Positions 54,009 to 64,000 are shown, counted from the stretch's first letter. The stretch: 64,000 nucleotides of DNA from Salinilacihabitans rarus (GCF_024296665.1 NZ_CP100762.1:2728001-2792000); one strand, 5' to 3'. A program made the numbers and translations. The notes: a model not told the origin generated them from the letters alone.

Positions 54009-55277
54009 ATGAAACGACGCGCGTACCTCGCGGCGGCCGCTGTCGCCCTCGGCGGCTGTGCGAGCACCGACGGGGCCGAGCGATCCGACGACCCCGACGC
54101 CCCGGCCGACCCGACCACGTCCCGGCGACCGGCGACCGACCGCGCCCCGGAGGCGACGGCGAGCGAGGGGGGCGGCGACCCCGACGCGGACGACGGTTCC
54201 GAGCGGGAGGCGGCGACCGACGTCTTCCCGCCACTCCCGACGTGGACCGTCCGGTCGGGATCGCGGTCGGCCGCGGGCGACGGGGACGCGGTCGTCCTCG
54301 AGGCGGCCGCCGCGGACGCTCGCGTCGCGGTCGCCCACGAGTTCGCCGCGCCGGCGGACCTCTCGGGGGTGATCCCGGGGCTCGCGGTCCGGTCGGCCGC
54401 GATGGTCTCGCCGGAGATCAGGCTGACCGACGCCGACGGCGACCGGATCGCCTACCGCCGGACGGTCCCCGGCGGCCTCCCCGCGATGCGGTACAACTTC
54501 GGGGTCGCCCGGGTCGACGGCGACCCCGACCTCGAAGCGGTGGTCGCGGCCGAACTCCGCGCGTGGGCCGGGGAGGGACGCGCCGTCGAGTTCGAGTGTT
54601 CCGACCTCCACCTCGCGCCGCGTCCCAACACCGGCGCAGTGTTGCTCCAGTTCGACGACGGCTACGAGACCGACTACACCGAGGCGTTCCCGATCCTCGA
54701 GGAGTACGGCTACCCGGCGACGACGTTCGTCAACGCCGACCGCGTCCCCCGCGAGACCGCCGGCGGTTACCCCACGCTCGACCTCGACCAGCTCGAAGCG
54801 CTGCGGGACGCGGGCTGGCTGATCGGCAACCACACGACGAGCCACGCGCGGCTCTCGGACCTGGACGCGGCCGACCAGGAGGCCCAGATCGCCGACGGGG
54901 CGGAGTGGCTCCGCGAGAACGGCTTCGAGGAGGGGGCTCGATACTTCGCGTACCCGTTCGGCGACTACGACGCGACGACGATCGACCTCGTGGCCGACCA
55001 CCACGAACTCGGCTTCGGGGGCGGCGGCGCGGTCGAGGGGTACCCGGCGAACCCGGCGCTGTGCTCGCGGGTCGGCGAACCGACCCTCGAGGAGGCGCGG
55101 ACCCTCCTCGACCGGACGGCCGAGCACCGCGGCATCACCTCGCTGTTCTACCACCGCCTCGACGGCGAGGCCGTCGACGAGTTCGCGGCGACGATCGAGT
55201 ACCTCCACGACCTGGAGGCGGCCGGCGACATCGAGGTCGTCCTGCCCGCCGACCTCGAACGGCGGTTCCTGCTCTGA
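54009..55277 (+). CDS. Exported polysaccharide deacetylase lipoprotein
   Basis: This 422-residue protein starts MKRRAYLAAAAVALGGC with a lipobox Cys at 17, then an acidic linker to about residue 75 and a beta-rich domain to about residue 205. The NodB domain follows: LLQFDDGYETDYTEAFPILE near residue 216, LIGNHTTSHARLSDL near residue 276 with the two metal His, and YFAYPFGDYDATTIDLV near residue 315. It probably deacetylates glycans outside the cell. A close paralogue follows at 55387. Confidence 0.9.
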   Translation: MKRRAYLAAAAVALGGCASTDGAERSDDPDAPADPTTSRRPATDRAPEATASEGGGDPDADDGSEREAATDVFPPLPTWTVRSGSRSAAGDGDAVVLEAAAADARVAVAHEFAAPADLSGVIPGLAVRSAAMVSPEIRLTDADGDRIAYRRTVPGGLPAMRYNFGVARVDGDPDLEAVVAAELRAWAGEGRAVEFECSDLHLAPRPNTGAVLLQFDDGYETDYTEAFPILEEYGYPATTFVNADRVPRETAGGYPTLDLDQLEALRDAGWLIGNHTTSHARLSDLDAADQEAQIADGAEWLRENGFEEGARYFAYPFGDYDATTIDLVADHHELGFGGGGAVEGYPANPALCSRVGEPTLEEARTLLDRTAEHRGITSLFYHRLDGEAVDEFAATIEYLHDLEAAGDIEVVLPADLERRFLL

Positions 55278-55386: not shown

Positions 55387-56685
55387 ATGAAACGACGCGC
55401 ATACCTCGCGGCGGCCGCGGTCGCGCTCGGCGGCTGCGCGGGCACCGAGGGTTCCAACCCCGACGAGTCGAACGCTACCAACGAATCGGGCGACGAGCAG
55501 TCGACGGACGAGCGCGAGCGGACGGACGAGTCGGACGAGTCGGACGAGTCGGACGAGTCGGACGAGGAGGAGTCGGCGGAGGAAGAGGTCGAGTCCGGAC
55601 CCGCCGACGAGGAGACGATCGACGACTTCGAGGACCTCTCGGCGTGGACCGTCGTGAAGGGGTCGCTCTCGGCGGACGAGATGCGGCCGTACGTCGGCAG
55701 CCAGTCGGCGATGCTGGAGGCCGACAGGTCGGACAGCCACGTCGTGATCTCCCGGGAGTTCGACGACCCGCTCGACTTCTCGGACTCGTTCCCGGGGCTC
55801 GCCCTCGGCGCGGGCGAGATGGTGACGGCGTTCGTCCAGTTGTTCGACGCCGACGGCGACCGGATGGACCTCCAGCGTACGTTCCCGGCCGACCTGCCGT
55901 TCATGCGGTACAACTTCGGGGTCGCCCGGGTCGACGGCGACCCCGACCTCGACGAGGTGGTCGAGGTGCGAGTCGGCTCGTGGGTCGGCGAGGAGGACGC
56001 CGTCCGCTTCTGGATCGACGACCTCCACCGCACGCCGCGCCCGGAGACGGGGAAGGTGCTGATCCAGTTCGACGACACCCACGCCACCGACTACACCGAG
56101 GGGCTCCCGATCCTCGAGGAGTACGGCTACCCGGCGACGTCGTTCGTCAACACCGACCGGATCGGCGCCGGCGAACTCGGCGGCTCCGAGCGCCTCGACC
56201 TCGACCAGCTCGAAGGGCTGCAGGACGCGGGCTGGCTGATCGGCAGCCACACGGCGAGTCACCCCTCGCTGGACGAACTCGACGCGGCCGACCAGGAGGC
56301 CGACATCCGCGGGGCGAAAGAGTGGCTCGTCGACCACGGCTTCGAGGAGGGCGCCGAGTACTTCGCGTACCCGTTCGGCGACTACGACGCGACGACGATC
56401 GACCTCGTGGCCGACCACCACGAACTCGGCTTCGGCGTCGGCGGCGCGGTCGGAGGGTACCCGGCGAACCCGGCGCTGTGCTCGCGGACCAGCGAACCGG
56501 ACGCCGACGAGGCGCGGGACCTCCTCGACCGGACGGCCGAGTACCGCGGCATCACCTCGCTGTTCTACCACCGCCTGGAGGACGACACCCTCGACGCGTT
56601 CGAGGCCATGGTCGAGCACCTCCACGACCTGGAGTCGGCCGGCGACATCGAGGTCGTCCTCCCCTCCGACCTCGTCGACGCGTAG
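55387..56685 (+). CDS. Exported polysaccharide deacetylase lipoprotein (paralogue)
   Basis: This 432-residue protein shares signal peptide, middle domain and NodB domain with the gene at 54009: MKRRAYLAAAAVALGGC, LIQFDDTHATDYTEGLPILE, LIGSHTASHPSLDEL and YFAYPFGDYDATTIDLV. In the first catalytic motif the paralogue's DDGYE is DDTHA here, keeping both Asp. The linker contains Asp-Glu-Ser repeats from a 9-bp tandem repeat. The pair is a recent tandem duplication, and differences lie mainly in linker and middle domain. Confidence 0.9.
   Translation: MKRRAYLAAAAVALGGCAGTEGSNPDESNATNESGDEQSTDERERTDESDESDESDESDEEESAEEEVESGPADEETIDDFEDLSAWTVVKGSLSADEMRPYVGSQSAMLEADRSDSHVVISREFDDPLDFSDSFPGLALGAGEMVTAFVQLFDADGDRMDLQRTFPADLPFMRYNFGVARVDGDPDLDEVVEVRVGSWVGEEDAVRFWIDDLHRTPRPETGKVLIQFDDTHATDYTEGLPILEEYGYPATSFVNTDRIGAGELGGSERLDLDQLEGLQDAGWLIGSHTASHPSLDELDAADQEADIRGAKEWLVDHGFEEGAEYFAYPFGDYDATTIDLVADHHELGFGVGGAVGGYPANPALCSRTSEPDADEARDLLDRTAEYRGITSLFYHRLEDDTLDAFEAMVEHLHDLESAGDIEVVLPSDLVDA
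55525..55560 (+). repeat. 9-bp tandem repeat (GACGAGTCG x4)
   Basis: Four perfect units encode Asp-Glu-Ser repeats in the lipoprotein linker. The tandem paralogue lacks them. Confidence 0.9.
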
Positions 56686-59427: not shown

Positions 59428-60657
59428 CTACGCGCCGTCGACGGTCGCTTCGACCTCCGCGTCGATCGGCGCGCGCGTCGACCCCTCCTCCAGTCCGAGT
59501 TCCTCGTCGGTGAGGTAACACCGCGGGTCCTCGGCCCAGAGGTCGTCGTGGACGGCGTACGCCCGCGCCCGGGAGTTGCCGCCACAGACCTCCCTGTACG
59601 GACAGCGCCCGCACCGGCCCGTCAGGTGAGCCGACGGGTTCGCGAGGCGGTCCCAGCGGTCGCTGTCCGCGAGGATCCGGTCGAGCGGCCGCTCCCGGAC
59701 GTTCCCGAGGGTGATCTCGGGGAGGAACATGCTCGGGTGGACGTCGCCGCGGTGGTCGACGTCGACCACCTTCGGCCCGCCGTCGCCCTTCTTGACGACC
59801 CTGCCGGGGCCGTCGTCGAGCAGCAACCGCCGGGCCCGGTCGGCGCGCTCGGGCAGTTCCGACTCGATCTTCCGGTAGAGGTAGACCGCGTCGGCGTAGT
59901 TGCCCGCCGAGAGGATCTGCATCTCCGGGTTCGTCTCGGCCAGTTCGACGGTCCGCTCGAAGAGGTAGTCGACCATCCGGCGCGTCTCCGCGAACGACAG
60001 GTCGCGGTCGGTGATCGCGCCGCCCCGGCCCGTGTAGATCAGGTGGAAGACGTTCACCCGGTCGACGCCGAGGTCGACGGCGAGGTCGACGACGTCCGGC
60101 AGGTCGTCGATCGTGTCCGCGGTCATCGTGCTCCGGACGCCGGTGTTCATCCCGGCCGCCTGGGCGTTGGACAGCCCCTCGACCGCGCGCTCGAACGACC
60201 CCTCGAGCCCGCGGAACCGGTCGTGGGTCTCGCCGACGCCGTCGAGCGAGACGCCGACGTAGGCCATCCCGGCGTCGGCGACCGCGCGGGCGCGCTCCGG
60301 GGTCAGGAACGTGCCGTTGCTCGAGGCGATGGTCCGCAGTCCCCGCTCGTCGGCGTGGGCGACCAGTTCCGCGAGGTCGTCGCGGACGAACGGCTCGCCG
60401 CCGCTGAAGACGAGCACCGGGACCCCCGCCTCGGCGAGGTCGTCGATGAACCGCTTTGCCTCGGCCGTCGAGAGTTCCTCGTCGGAGCGGCGGTCGACGG
60501 CGCCGAAGTAGCAGTGTTCGCAGGTGAGGTTACACGCCGGCGTGGTGTTCCAGACAACGACGGGCACCGTCCCGCCGTCGCGCGAGCGCGACCGTTCGTA
60601 CCGCGTCCGCTCCGGGCGGTTGTCGATCCCGTGGACGAGTCTGGTGAGGTCGATCAT
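59428..60657 (-). CDS. Radical SAM/SPASM protein, NirJ/AhbC-like
   Basis: This 409-residue protein starts MIDLTRLVHGIDNRPERTRY. It has the radical SAM motif CNLTCEHC near residue 42, then LVFSGGEPFVRDDL near residue 84 (GGEP), IASSNGTFL and VGVSLDGVGETHDRF. A C-terminal SPASM-type Cys cluster reads CGRCPYREVCGG near residue 350, with a later CYLTDEEL. Relatives include NirJ and AhbC/AhbD, which act on haem d1 or haem side chains, and peptide-modifying enzymes. The neighbouring d1-type propellers favour the haem d1 path. It overlaps the preceding gene by 4 bases. Confidence 0.88.
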   Translation of the reverse strand: MIDLTRLVHGIDNRPERTRYERSRSRDGGTVPVVVWNTTPACNLTCEHCYFGAVDRRSDEELSTAEAKRFIDDLAEAGVPVLVFSGGEPFVRDDLAELVAHADERGLRTIASSNGTFLTPERARAVADAGMAYVGVSLDGVGETHDRFRGLEGSFERAVEGLSNAQAAGMNTGVRSTMTADTIDDLPDVVDLAVDLGVDRVNVFHLIYTGRGGAITDRDLSFAETRRMVDYLFERTVELAETNPEMQILSAGNYADAVYLYRKIESELPERADRARRLLLDDGPGRVVKKGDGGPKVVDVDHRGDVHPSMFLPEITLGNVRERPLDRILADSDRWDRLANPSAHLTGRCGRCPYREVCGGNSRARAYAVHDDLWAEDPRCYLTDEELGLEEGSTRAPIDAEVEATVDGA

Positions 60658-61769
60658 GTCGGTGGGGTAAAGATGCCGCTCGGCAGGTCGCCGAGCCCCT
60701 CGATTCGGTCCGCGACCGTCACGTCCGCCGGCCGGTCCGACCGGAGCGGCGAGAGGTCGAGGACGGTCACGCACGGGCGATCCATGTTGCCGACGAAGCA
60801 GGCGTCGCCGTCGGGCGAGACGACGAGGTGCATCGGCTGGCCGCCGACGTCGACCCGGCCGACGACCGAGCGCGACGCCGCGTCGACGACCGTCACGTGG
60901 GACTCGTCGTAGGAGTCGACGAGGACGTACCGGCCGTCGGGCGTGGTCGCGGCGAAGCCGGTCGTCGTTCCGACGTCGACGAACGCGGCGGCGTCGTTCT
61001 CGCCGGCCTCGACCGCGTCGAGGTCGACCGCCGTCAGCCGGTCGTCGTCCCGCGCGGGAACGTAGGCGCGTCGCCCGTCCGGACCGTCGGCGAACGCGAT
61101 CCCGTGTGGGTTCTCGCCGGTCGGTACCTGGGCCGCGACCCGCTTCGTCCCGACGTCGACGAACGTCGTGAACGACTCCCCGGCGTTGTTGACGGCGACG
61201 AGGTCCGTCCCCGGCACCGGGTACACGTCGTGGGGTCGCTCGCCGACGGCGTACCGCGTCCCCTCGGCCAACTCGGCCGTCGGCGACAGCGCGACCAGTT
61301 CGCCCCGGCTCTTGACGGCGACGTACAGCCGACCGTCCGGGCCGAGGCACATCCCGGCGCACTTGCCGAGCGCGCGGGTCCCGATCCGCTCGGGTACCGG
61401 CCGCCCCTCGGGGACGCGGAACGCCATCACCCCCGGCTCGTCGTCGTCCGGCAGCGCCCCGGCGGTCCCGACGAACAGGCGCCGGCCGTCGTCGGTCAGC
61501 GCGGAGCCGACGCTCGCGGTCCCGAGGTCGTCGACGCGCCCGACCGTCTCCAGGCGTTCGAGGTCGACGACTTCGAGGTGGGCGCTCGTGATGTACAGCA
61601 GGTACGCGTGGCGGCCGTCCGGGTGGAACGCCGCCGTGTGGGGGTACGTTCCGTCGCCGACGCGACCCACCTCCTCGCGCGCGTCGAGGTCGACGACGCT
61701 GAAGTGCTCGCTGCCGGCGTTCTTGACGAGCGCCGTTCGCTCCGTCGGTGGCGGTGTCGGTCGCGTCAT
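60654..61769 (-). CDS. Beta-propeller (cytochrome d1-like / YVTN) protein
   Basis: This 371-residue protein starts MTRPTPPPTERTALVKNAGS. It consists of seven or eight repeats of about 45 residues with DPDG/HPDGRHAY-type turns, VVDLxxxxxVGRV strands and PHDVYPVPG and NPHGIAF segments typical of YVTN/d1-type propellers. There is no signal peptide or c-haem motif. By position it is a NirF/NirN-like or chaperone-like partner of the d1 protein upstream. Its stop overlaps the radical SAM start (ATGA); the gap to the previous gene is 5 bases. Confidence 0.85.
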   Translation of the reverse strand: MTRPTPPPTERTALVKNAGSEHFSVVDLDAREEVGRVGDGTYPHTAAFHPDGRHAYLLYITSAHLEVVDLERLETVGRVDDLGTASVGSALTDDGRRLFVGTAGALPDDDEPGVMAFRVPEGRPVPERIGTRALGKCAGMCLGPDGRLYVAVKSRGELVALSPTAELAEGTRYAVGERPHDVYPVPGTDLVAVNNAGESFTTFVDVGTKRVAAQVPTGENPHGIAFADGPDGRRAYVPARDDDRLTAVDLDAVEAGENDAAAFVDVGTTTGFAATTPDGRYVLVDSYDESHVTVVDAASRSVVGRVDVGGQPMHLVVSPDGDACFVGNMDRPCVTVLDLSPLRSDRPADVTVADRIEGLGDLPSGIFTPPT

Positions 61770-61774
61770 GGGTG

Positions 61775-62938
61775 TCAGGTGTCCGCTCCGCGGCGGGGTC
61801 GCTCGGTCAGGAAACAACTCGACGGCGCGCTGTCGGTCGGGAGGTCGACCCGCGCGAGGAGTCGGGGGTCGGGGTCGGAGCCCGGTTCGCGGAGCGACGA
61901 CGTGTCGATCGCCGCCACGGAGTCGTCGTCCACGTTCGCCACGTAGCACCGCCGGCCGTCGGCGGCGAACGCCGGGTGGCGCGGCGTCTCCCCGGTCCGC
62001 ACGCGCGCGACGACGTCGAGCGTGCCGGCGTCGACGAACGAGACGCGGTCGTCCTCGTAGGCGTCGACGGCGACGTGGGCGCCGCCGGGGGCGACGTCGA
62101 CGAACGCCGTCGGCGTGCCAAGCGGGAGTCGCGTCTCGCGGGTCGGCCGCTCGCCGGCGAGGTCGACGACGGTCAGGCCGTCGCCCTCGGTGTCGGCGAC
62201 GAACCAGCGGTCGTGGGCCGCCGACGCCGCGCCGCCGCGCGGGTTCGGCGCGTCGACGGTGGCGACGACGCGGCGCTCGGCGAGGTCGACGAACGAGACG
62301 CTCCCGTCGTCGACGTCGTTGACGCCGAGCAGCCGGTAGCCGGGGGCGTACGACAGGTCCTGTGGCTCGCCCGGAACCGACAGTCGGTCCCGGACGTCGA
62401 ACGGGGGGCGCCCGTCGAGGCGGACGACCGCGCCGTCGTCTTTCAGGGCGACCCACGGGTCGTCGCCGGCGTCGACGACGACGCCCGCGCCCTTGCCGAT
62501 CGGCAGGTGGGCGACCGGCTCGAACCGGCCGTCGTCGCGGGCGTGCGTCCGCAACACCGTCACCCCGGGGCCGTCGTCGTCCGGCAGGTCGCCGTAGCCG
62601 GTGACGTAGAGGTACCGGCCGTCGCGGGAGGCGGCGACGCCGATCGGCGCGGTACCGACCGCGTCGGTCCGGTCGAGGACGGACGACGAGCGCACGTCGA
62701 CGGCCTCGACGGTCCCGGAGGAGGCGTACGCGAGGTACGCCCGTCGGCCCCGCGGGCCGAACGCGAGGCCGTGCGGGTGGCGACCCTCTCCGACGCGGGC
62801 GACGAACTCGCACTCGCCGTCGTCTTCCTCGCGGCCGTCCACGTCGACCGCGGCGAACCCGCGGTCGCGCATCAGCTTCACGAACGCCAGTTCGCCCTCG
62901 ACGCCGGCGGACGCGTCGGGCGGTGCGGGTCGTGACAT
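61775..62938 (-). CDS. Beta-propeller (cytochrome d1-like / YVTN) protein
   Basis: This 387-residue protein starts MSRPAPPDASAGVEGELAFV. Repeats with GRHPHGLAFGPRGRRAYLAY near residue 60, FVDLAERRVVATVDAPNPRG and RHPAFAADGRRCYVANVDDD mark it as a seven- or eight-bladed propeller, paralogous to the gene at 60654. It has no signal peptide, so it is cytosolic. It lies 8 bases after the d1-domain gene and 5 bases before the next propeller, in a single transcript. It may hold haem d1 or a precursor; this is inference. Confidence 0.85.
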   Translation of the reverse strand: MSRPAPPDASAGVEGELAFVKLMRDRGFAAVDVDGREEDDGECEFVARVGEGRHPHGLAFGPRGRRAYLAYASSGTVEAVDVRSSSVLDRTDAVGTAPIGVAASRDGRYLYVTGYGDLPDDDGPGVTVLRTHARDDGRFEPVAHLPIGKGAGVVVDAGDDPWVALKDDGAVVRLDGRPPFDVRDRLSVPGEPQDLSYAPGYRLLGVNDVDDGSVSFVDLAERRVVATVDAPNPRGGAASAAHDRWFVADTEGDGLTVVDLAGERPTRETRLPLGTPTAFVDVAPGGAHVAVDAYEDDRVSFVDAGTLDVVARVRTGETPRHPAFAADGRRCYVANVDDDSVAAIDTSSLREPGSDPDPRLLARVDLPTDSAPSSCFLTERPRRGADT

Positions 62939-62946
62939 GCGTGTCG

Positions 62947-64000
62947 TCAGTCGACCTCGTACTTGTCCGCCCGGCGGCACGGGAACTTGCCCGTCACCGG
63001 CCGGAGGTCGGTCATCGCGTCGAGGTGTTCGCCGGTGTGGCTGTCGTAGACGTGGATCTCGCCCTCGGGCCAGTGGCTCACGAAGAGTTCCTGACCGTCG
63101 TTCGAGAAGATCGGGTGGATCGCGTGCTCGCTTCCCGTCTCGATCACGAGGTCATCGTCGACCTCGAGGGTCTCGCGGTCTATGGCGTACACCAACTGGT
63201 CGAGGTCGGGGTCGTCCCGGAGCGCGACGTCACACCAGACGTAGTCACAGTCGTGGTGATTGCGCAGGAACAGGCCGCCGCCGGGGACGTCGATGCGCTT
63301 CTCGACCTCCCAGGTCTCGGTGCTCCAGGCGGTCGTGACGTTCTCGTCGCCCAGGTGGGTCGTGAACGCGCGGTCGCGTTTCGGGTCGAGCGCGCCCGGG
63401 CCGGGGTGGGGAATCGCCCCGGTCTCGATGTTCGCGACGCGCTCTCGCTCCTCGAGGTCGACGACCGAGACGACGTCGTCGCTCTGGGCGGCGATCATGA
63501 AGTACCGCCCGTCCTTCGTGAAGAAGCCGTCGTGGAGCGTCCGCGCGCAGTCGATCTCGGCGACGACCGGGAACTCGTCGTCGGTGTAGTCGATCAGCCA
63601 CACCTCGCCCAGTTCCTTCAGCCCGGCGACGAACACCTCGTACTTCGGCGAGTCGTAGAGCGCACAGACCCGGCTCTCGACGTACTGGCCGTCGAGGTCG
63701 ATGCCGCGGGTGGAGATCTGCTTGATCGGCGAGAGGTCGTCCGCGTCCGTGATGAGGATCTGACCCGGGGTGTAGAAGCCGGCGGCGACGTACTGGCCGT
63801 CGTGGGACACCGCGATGTCGCGGGCGTCGGTGCCGGCACGGACGCGGGCGACGCGGTCGAGGCCCCACAGGTCGAGCTTGTAGATGTAGCCGTCGCGGGC
63901 CATCGTGTAGGCGTACGCCCCCTCGCGCTCGTTGTCGGGGAGCGTGTTCGGGAAGTCCATCACGTGGATGGCCTGCCCGACGTCCTCGATCCGGCCGATC
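62947..64000 (-). CDS. Cytochrome cd1-type d1-haem domain protein (N-terminus beyond window)
   Basis: The frame is open at the window edge, so at least 351 residues are seen and the N-terminus is missing. The visible part follows the d1 domain of cytochrome cd1 nitrite reductase / NirF closely: TMARDGYIYKLDLWGLDRVA, GTDARDIAVSHDGQYVAAGF, ISTRGIDLDGQYVESRV, ARTLHDGFFTKDGRYF, IPHPGPGALDP and THLGDENVTT. In NirS the LHDG and PHPG His residues lie at the d1-haem site, and both are kept. Whether a c-haem domain precedes it cannot be seen. It leads the operon with two propellers and the radical SAM gene. Confidence 0.87.
   Translation of the reverse strand, partial: IGRIEDVGQAIHVMDFPNTLPDNEREGAYAYTMARDGYIYKLDLWGLDRVARVRAGTDARDIAVSHDGQYVAAGFYTPGQILITDADDLSPIKQISTRGIDLDGQYVESRVCALYDSPKYEVFVAGLKELGEVWLIDYTDDEFPVVAEIDCARTLHDGFFTKDGRYFMIAAQSDDVVSVVDLEERERVANIETGAIPHPGPGALDPKRDRAFTTHLGDENVTTAWSTETWEVEKRIDVPGGGLFLRNHHDCDYVWCDVALRDDPDLDQLVYAIDRETLEVDDDLVIETGSEHAIHPIFSNDGQELFVSHWPEGEIHVYDSHTGEHLDAMTDLRPVTGKFPCRRADKYEVD

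Follow-up and report, generated by a model that had tools for sequence, protein, structure and literature searches.

Haloarchaeal nitrite reductases retrieved in a 2021 survey were all NirK (PMC8400030). We analyzed a 64,000-nucleotide stretch of DNA from the haloarchaeon Salinilacihabitans rarus (hereafter the window; genome positions 2728001-2792000, the genome being one contig of 3.62 Mb), at the right end of which four minus-strand genes run from 59428 to past 64000. They encode, in order, the cytochrome-d1 protein, two paralogous propellers (B and C) and a radical SAM (S-adenosylmethionine) enzyme. Re-reading the frames bore out those of an initial annotation of this DNA, together with its spacings of 8, 5 and -4 bases on one strand. 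We propose that the operon probably encodes a haem-d1 nitrite reductase that is lipid-anchored outside the cytoplasm and has a CuA domain instead of a c-type haem domain (CuA-d1), along with a cassette for late synthesis and insertion of haem d1. Some positions below are in L005 coordinates, to which 56999 is added to obtain the window position.

62947..64000, minus strand: 3' part of the CuA-d1 gene, encoding the C-terminal 350 aa and nearly the whole d1 propeller; stop at 62947
L005:5948-7774, minus strand: complete CuA-d1 gene, reaching past the window to genome position C1:2792773, which would be window position 64773
61775..62938, minus strand: propeller B, 387 aa, 8 bases from the d1 gene; paralogue of C, with remote similarity to NirF
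60654..61769, minus strand: propeller C, 371 aa, after a gap of 5 bases; predicted fold most like that of NirF and next most like those of NirN and NirS
59428..60657, minus strand: radical SAM/SPASM enzyme of the NirJ/AhbC supergroup, 409 aa; overlaps propeller C by 4 bases

The CuA-d1 protein

We found that the d1 part of the first protein matches the Pfam family Cytochrom_D1 at E = 1.5e-77 (3.3e-78 in a whole-genome search) and contains LHDG and PHPG, confirming the d1 domain that had been described with these motifs. A profile of the CuA-d1 family searched against P. aeruginosa recovered NirS (1.5e-53), NirN (6.5e-51) and NirF (3.9e-36). When the predicted structure (mean predicted local distance difference test score, pLDDT, 71; predicted template modeling score, pTM, 0.71) was compared to the PDB with Foldseek, the top 30 matches were NirN, NirS and NirF, and the next propeller was weaker by about nine orders of magnitude. 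Of 392 haloarchaeal genomes, 14 carry CuA-d1, and they belong to 5 of 95 genera; the named carriers are Halobiforma, Natrinema, Halorubrum and Natronomonas species. An alignment with annotated NirS, NirF and NirN revealed that three NirS histidines (AVHI/AIHV, LHDG and PHPG), which are the proximal and the two distal histidines, are invariant in 14/14 homologues. Since these are kept and the LHDG histidine is absent from NirF and NirN in the same alignment, the active site appears to be of the nitrite-reductase type rather than that of a biosynthesis protein.

The gene extends 773 bases beyond the window end and has 609 codons including the stop from the chosen start, although longer starts are possible. 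From the N-terminus, the complete protein has an acidic N-terminus, a twin-arginine translocation (Tat) signal with a lipobox (RRRFLAGTAAVGTAAIAGC), an acidic linker, a cupredoxin domain and the cytochrome-d1 propeller, the signal and the cupredoxin being encoded in the part beyond the window. The cupredoxin bears CTTYCGDGHAQM, with a histidine 41 residues ahead of the first cysteine. Both the twin arginines and the lipobox cysteine are invariant in 14/14 homologues, as are the CuA ligands His, Cys, Cys, His and Met, with the upstream histidine 41-42 residues before the first cysteine and the others spaced C-to-C 4, C-to-H 4 and H-to-M 3, that is, CxxxCxxxHxxM. In profile searches the domain matches the CuA domains of L-NosZ, NosZ and CoxB models, and it also matches Thermus CuA structures. 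By its ligand pattern, this predicted copper site is CuA as in oxidase subunit II and NosZ, not blue copper.

The initial annotation had proposed reading past position 64000 for a signal peptide and a c-haem domain and had called the d1-haem domain cd1-type. A signal peptide is indeed present, in the form of the Tat lipoprotein signal, but CxxCH is found in 0/14 CuA-d1 proteins and nowhere in the 20 kb around the locus; a c-type haem domain upstream of d1 is thus ruled out, and the cd1 label gives way to CuA. Since the c-haem feature was tested for and is absent, we do not class CuA-d1 as a member of the cytochrome cd1 family. It does share with cytochrome cd1 NirS an eight-bladed d1 propeller, the proximal and both distal histidines, export and a NirJ-type radical SAM enzyme alongside, whereas it differs in having a CuA cupredoxin instead of cytochrome c, in being a Tat lipoprotein and in forming a separate deep clade in the best tree, and its cluster has no nirC, nirDLGH, nirE or canonical nirN. 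The complete ligand set and spacing are common to the CuA domains of NosZ, L-NosZ and oxidase subunit II; however, CuA is N-terminal to the propeller in CuA-d1, while in the NosZ and L-NosZ (NF052460) models it is the C-terminal end that gives the CuA match. Proteins of the cupredoxin-C1-C2-NirS type from Chloroflexi likewise have a copper-type domain N-terminal to the NirS domain but keep their cytochrome c domains, which CuA replaces in the haloarchaeal protein (PMC8756737).

Propellers, radical SAM enzyme and co-occurring genes

Propellers B and C are tandem paralogues of one another (profile E about 1e-60), and both score above the Cytochrom_D1 gathering score of 25.5 bits (35.2 and 48.5 bits, respectively). 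Among d1-family profiles NirF is the nearest to both over the full length, although remotely (7e-13 and 8e-11), and these profiles recovered no orthologue of NirN. Structure modeling of propeller C gave an eight-bladed propeller (pLDDT 94) whose best PDB match by Foldseek is NirF (TM score 0.78); NirN, NirS and a single surface-layer protein of the YVTN type come next. Propeller C also has invariant PH motifs (H44, H180 and H222) and H314. Compared to NirF and NirN, then, B and C have a full-length NirF profile match, and C a NirF-like predicted fold, but they are remote in sequence and are tandem paralogues without signal peptides. Since the gene calling was simple and left some propellers truncated or in pieces, the N-termini of propeller B are uncertain at L029, L031-L033, L035, L037 and L038. 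Neither gene model in the window has a signal peptide, and both propellers are probably cytosolic, as judged from their sequences. Because the d1 enzyme, by contrast, is a lipoprotein exported by Tat, the cytosolic three-propeller relay that had been suggested would apply at most to cofactor assembly.

The radical SAM enzyme has TIGR04347, NirJ1, AhbC and NirJ as its best models, all below their curated cut-offs, with about equal scores for NirJ1, AhbC and NirJ (E = 1e-110 to 7e-99). It contains CX3CX2C (CNLTCEHC) and a C-terminal CX2CX5CX21C (CGRC-PYREV-C-x21-C, P0005), and the motifs given for NirJ are CX3CX2C and CX2CX5CX20-21C (PMC10548856). In a tree, the cassette enzymes fall alongside NirJ, the TIGR04347 group of haloarchaea and AhbC-like proteins of methanogens; AhbD-like TIGR04053 and MoaA lie separately. 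The tree has duplicate rows (L063/L069, L057/L064 and L060/L068) because a divergent neighbor was picked at those loci, which should leave the cassette and NirJ clades unaffected. The enzyme thus shares both cysteine motifs and the tetrapyrrole radical SAM supergroup with NirJ and AhbC but forms a clade of its own, so that of the term NirJ-like in the initial annotation the supergroup stands, while NirJ itself is a sister branch. A peptide-modifying enzyme is rejected, since the best models are tetrapyrrole radical SAM enzymes, PqqE is far weaker and the tree places it in the NirJ/AhbC supergroup. TIGR04347 is named "pseudo-SAM" in NCBIfam, a name that may be misleading, as the haloarchaeal members that we read have an intact CxxxCxxC and group with NirJ/AhbC (one is at L063:1390-2601, genome C1:397188-398360).

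All 14 carriers keep the order CuA-d1, propeller, propeller, radical SAM, with a HemA paralogue as the following gene in 13. To put these counts in context, we compared carriers to 20 non-carriers of the same family, which were the first listed and not a random draw. A second full-length HemA was present in 13/14 carriers but 0/20 non-carriers (Fisher p = 1.5e-8); the cassette HemA scored above the TIGR01035 cut-off of 209.55 bits in 10 of 13 cases and just below it in 3 (185.6-208.7), covering nearly the full model. The cassette radical SAM enzyme showed the same pattern (14/14 compared to 0/20), while the siroheme decarboxylases AhbA/B were found in 14/14 carriers and 11/20 non-carriers. NirK was present in all 14 carriers, in one of them in fragments and often in several copies, compared to 8/20 non-carriers with a full-length copy (p = 0.0002). 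A nitric oxide (NO) reductase-like haem-copper protein (13/14 compared to 7/20) and NosZ (10/14 compared to 5/20) followed suit. Since the carriers are related to one another, these counts are not fully independent, a problem eased by genera g2 and g9, which hold both carriers and non-carriers. These findings support the operon as a conserved tetrapyrrole cassette.

The operon has neither nirE nor nirDLGH, in agreement with what had been visible in the window, and elsewhere the genome contains SUMT and three two-domain siroheme-decarboxylase (AhbA/B) loci. In the Halobiforma-group carriers G145, G347 and G380, the cassette enzyme is the sole NirJ/AhbC-type radical SAM protein detected and AhbA/B are present, which suggests that 12,18-didecarboxysiroheme (DDSH) is made there for the cassette. 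Separately, siroheme decarboxylase was undetected in 9 of the 20 same-family haloarchaea (G063, G087, G112, G122, G128, G134, G140, G169 and G179), so the siroheme route to haem seems patchy in the family. The control genome, that of the laboratory haloarchaeon Haloferax volcanii, does encode AhbA/B family proteins. Neighbors of the cassette in some genomes are a gene pair for a CuA-type haem-copper oxidase or NO reductase-like protein, SCO1, a copper ATPase, or a type II molybdoenzyme of the dimethyl sulfoxide reductase family. In Halobiforma, SCO1, the copper ATPase and the CuA-type haem-copper subunit pair are all linked to the cassette, which fits the copper side of the enzyme. Outside the haloarchaea, one scan of genome contigs with two short patterns, which would miss distant versions, found no CuA-d1, and no plasmid record covered 80% of the CuA-d1 query.

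Proposed function, rival readings and earlier reports

With a real d1 protein and a conserved tetrapyrrole cassette, the initial suggestion that the organism makes or uses d1-type haem gains support, and it very probably does both. In the known pathway, AhbA/B produce DDSH, NirJ removes its propionates, and the completion of haem d1 falls to NirF and NirN (PMC10548856). From the domains, ligands, conserved cassette and co-occurrence, we infer the identity of the cofactor, each reaction and the electron donor as follows. Siroheme would be made and then decarboxylated to DDSH by the host's own AhbA/B, with the second hemA boosting precursor supply in most carriers, and the cassette radical SAM enzyme would take both propionates off DDSH, as NirJ does. 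Propellers B and C would take up the cytosolic intermediate, complete it and pass it on, thus doing the work of NirF and NirN. The folded, d1-loaded enzyme would be exported by Tat and lipid-anchored, and electrons would pass from a copper or membrane donor through CuA to d1, where nitrite would be reduced to NO. Respiration in haloarchaea makes use of halocyanins, with few cytochromes of the c type, so an entry through CuA would suit them.

Several observations weigh against this proposal. In the best tree the d1 proteins of haloarchaea are a separate clade lying outside NirS and NirN, although a clade with NirS is not rejected (approximately unbiased test, AU p = 0.34). The radical SAM enzyme reaches 331 bits against a NirJ cut-off of 515 (NCBIfam TIGR04051), compared to 599 for Ruegeria NirJ, and the cassette enzymes occupy their own branch, a 99%-supported clade in the NirJ/AhbC supergroup but outside NirJ. 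On propellers B and C, generic YVTN/PQQ-repeat and surface-layer models outscore the d1 family, so that the profile comparison to NirF, NirN and NirS that had been proposed turns out strongly for the d1 protein and only in part for B and C. The window genome itself has no second, linked hemA. Lastly, with NirK in every carrier, there seems little need for another nitrite reductase; on this ground we reject the idea that CuA-d1 replaces NirK and regard it as an additional enzyme. Nor would it be a copper-saving backup, since CuA-d1 needs copper too.

The presence of NirK in all 14 carriers, often in several copies, would also suit an enzyme that comes from the same cassette but has a non-respiratory job beside NirK, removing NO or O2 or acting on another nitrogen oxide. 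Enzymes of the cd1 type can also reduce O2, and eight carriers hold a cytosolic d1 paralogue without CuA, which could not be fed in the manner of CuA-d1. However, all three NirS histidines, both distal ones included, are invariant, and the carriers are denitrifiers by gene content, with the cassette beside denitrification genes in some genomes. We therefore consider this role unlikely.

It seems rather unlikely, too, that the cofactor is a related tetrapyrrole derived from DDSH instead of canonical haem d1. The distinct radical SAM enzyme, with its separate clade and even scores, and the two distinct propellers, with no NirN orthologue and a remote likeness to NirF, would fit such a cofactor, but the histidines of the d1 pocket are those of NirS and the predicted fold of propeller C is NirF-like. 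A similarly low probability goes to a Tat-exported copper/haem hybrid respiratory enzyme with a d1-like tetrapyrrole other than haem d1, which the three cassette proteins would make in the cytosol from the archaeal siroheme route. Ordinary YVTN surface-layer propellers beside a peptide-modifying radical SAM enzyme, the case named at the outset as the one that would overturn the d1 assignment, can be dismissed, for although B and C are matched well by generic models of the YVTN type, it is refuted by the Cytochrom_D1 match with its nearest folds in NirS, NirN and NirF, by the radical SAM results and by the linked second HemA.

A CuA-linked haem-d1 nitrite reductase, our preferred reading, connects to earlier reports. 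In a 2024 survey, 21 haloarchaeal genomes have both nirK and nirS by gene call (PMC11052009), and a 2024 phylogeny describes a Halobacteriota NirS-like outgroup that lacks a cytochrome c domain and was left out of nirS counts (PMC10999283). Since the genera named there match those of the carriers (Halobiforma, Natrinema, Halorubrum and Natronomonas), and nirK accompanies the gene in both cases, that clade and those nirS calls are very probably CuA-d1 proteins. In the main text of either paper we found no mention of a CuA domain, a cassette, a linked hemA or any tie to AhbA/B. Thus, a NirS-like protein in haloarchaea was already known, while our literature search turned up no description of its CuA domain or of the d1 cassette.

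CuA-d1 would amount to a known enzyme built in a new way, its d1 module joined to a different electron entry, CuA and not cytochrome c. It contradicts the view that NirK represents every haloarchaeal nitrite reductase (PMC8400030) and would account for the 21 archaea in which nirK is listed together with nirS (PMC11052009). Metagenome surveys that leave this clade out of nirS counts (PMC10999283) may overlook an NO-forming enzyme in saline soils and lakes. The cassette also bears on which proteins convert DDSH to haem d1 and on the role of NirF, which has been called unclear (PMC10548856). One radical SAM enzyme and two propellers, together with the host's AhbA/B, may be a natural minimal haem d1 set that could be transferred to a laboratory strain, and so small a set could explain how these archaea synthesize haem d1 with few genes.

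Stand-alone d1 proteins and neighboring genes

The d1 paralogue without CuA or a signal peptide is found in 8 genomes, all of them carriers (hypergeometric p = 2e-13), and keeps the NirS-type histidines in the copies that we read. That it occurs in carriers alone would make sense if it needs the cofactor made by the cassette, and our guess is that it is a cytosolic NO- or nitrite-handling protein. Natrinema thermotolerans A29 has one stand-alone d1 gene on a 987 kb plasmid, which is missing from the gene table. Besides one at L023, the positions of the paralogues are:

L041:8478-9737, stand-alone d1 protein
L042:8122-9330, stand-alone d1 protein
L043:8445-9653, stand-alone d1 protein
L044:8576-9847, stand-alone d1 protein
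L045:8091-9368, stand-alone d1 protein
L046:9014-9946, stand-alone d1 protein
L047:8847-9923, stand-alone d1 protein

The window genome alone has, divergently upstream of CuA-d1, a gene for an N-terminally extended 2Fe-2S ferredoxin-domain protein of 193 aa (L005:8049-8630, plus strand). In 9 of 14 genomes, the window genome not among them, a divergent gene for a protein of about 130 aa with no Pfam or NCBIfam match adjoins the cassette; examples among others are:

L031:7946-8344, divergent gene for the protein of about 130 aa
L032:7204-7587, the same
L034:10586-10996, the same
L035:7897-8289, the same

Further from the operon, translations read by eye suggest that window positions 54009-55277 and 55387-56685 (plus strand) encode tandem, similar lipoproteins with a polysaccharide deacetylase-like C-terminus. 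Beyond the window end, also by eye, L005:15619-17703 (minus strand) encodes a CHAT-protease-like protein (HYIGH ... NGCQS), and a small partner gene (L005:17700-18374, minus strand) overlaps it.

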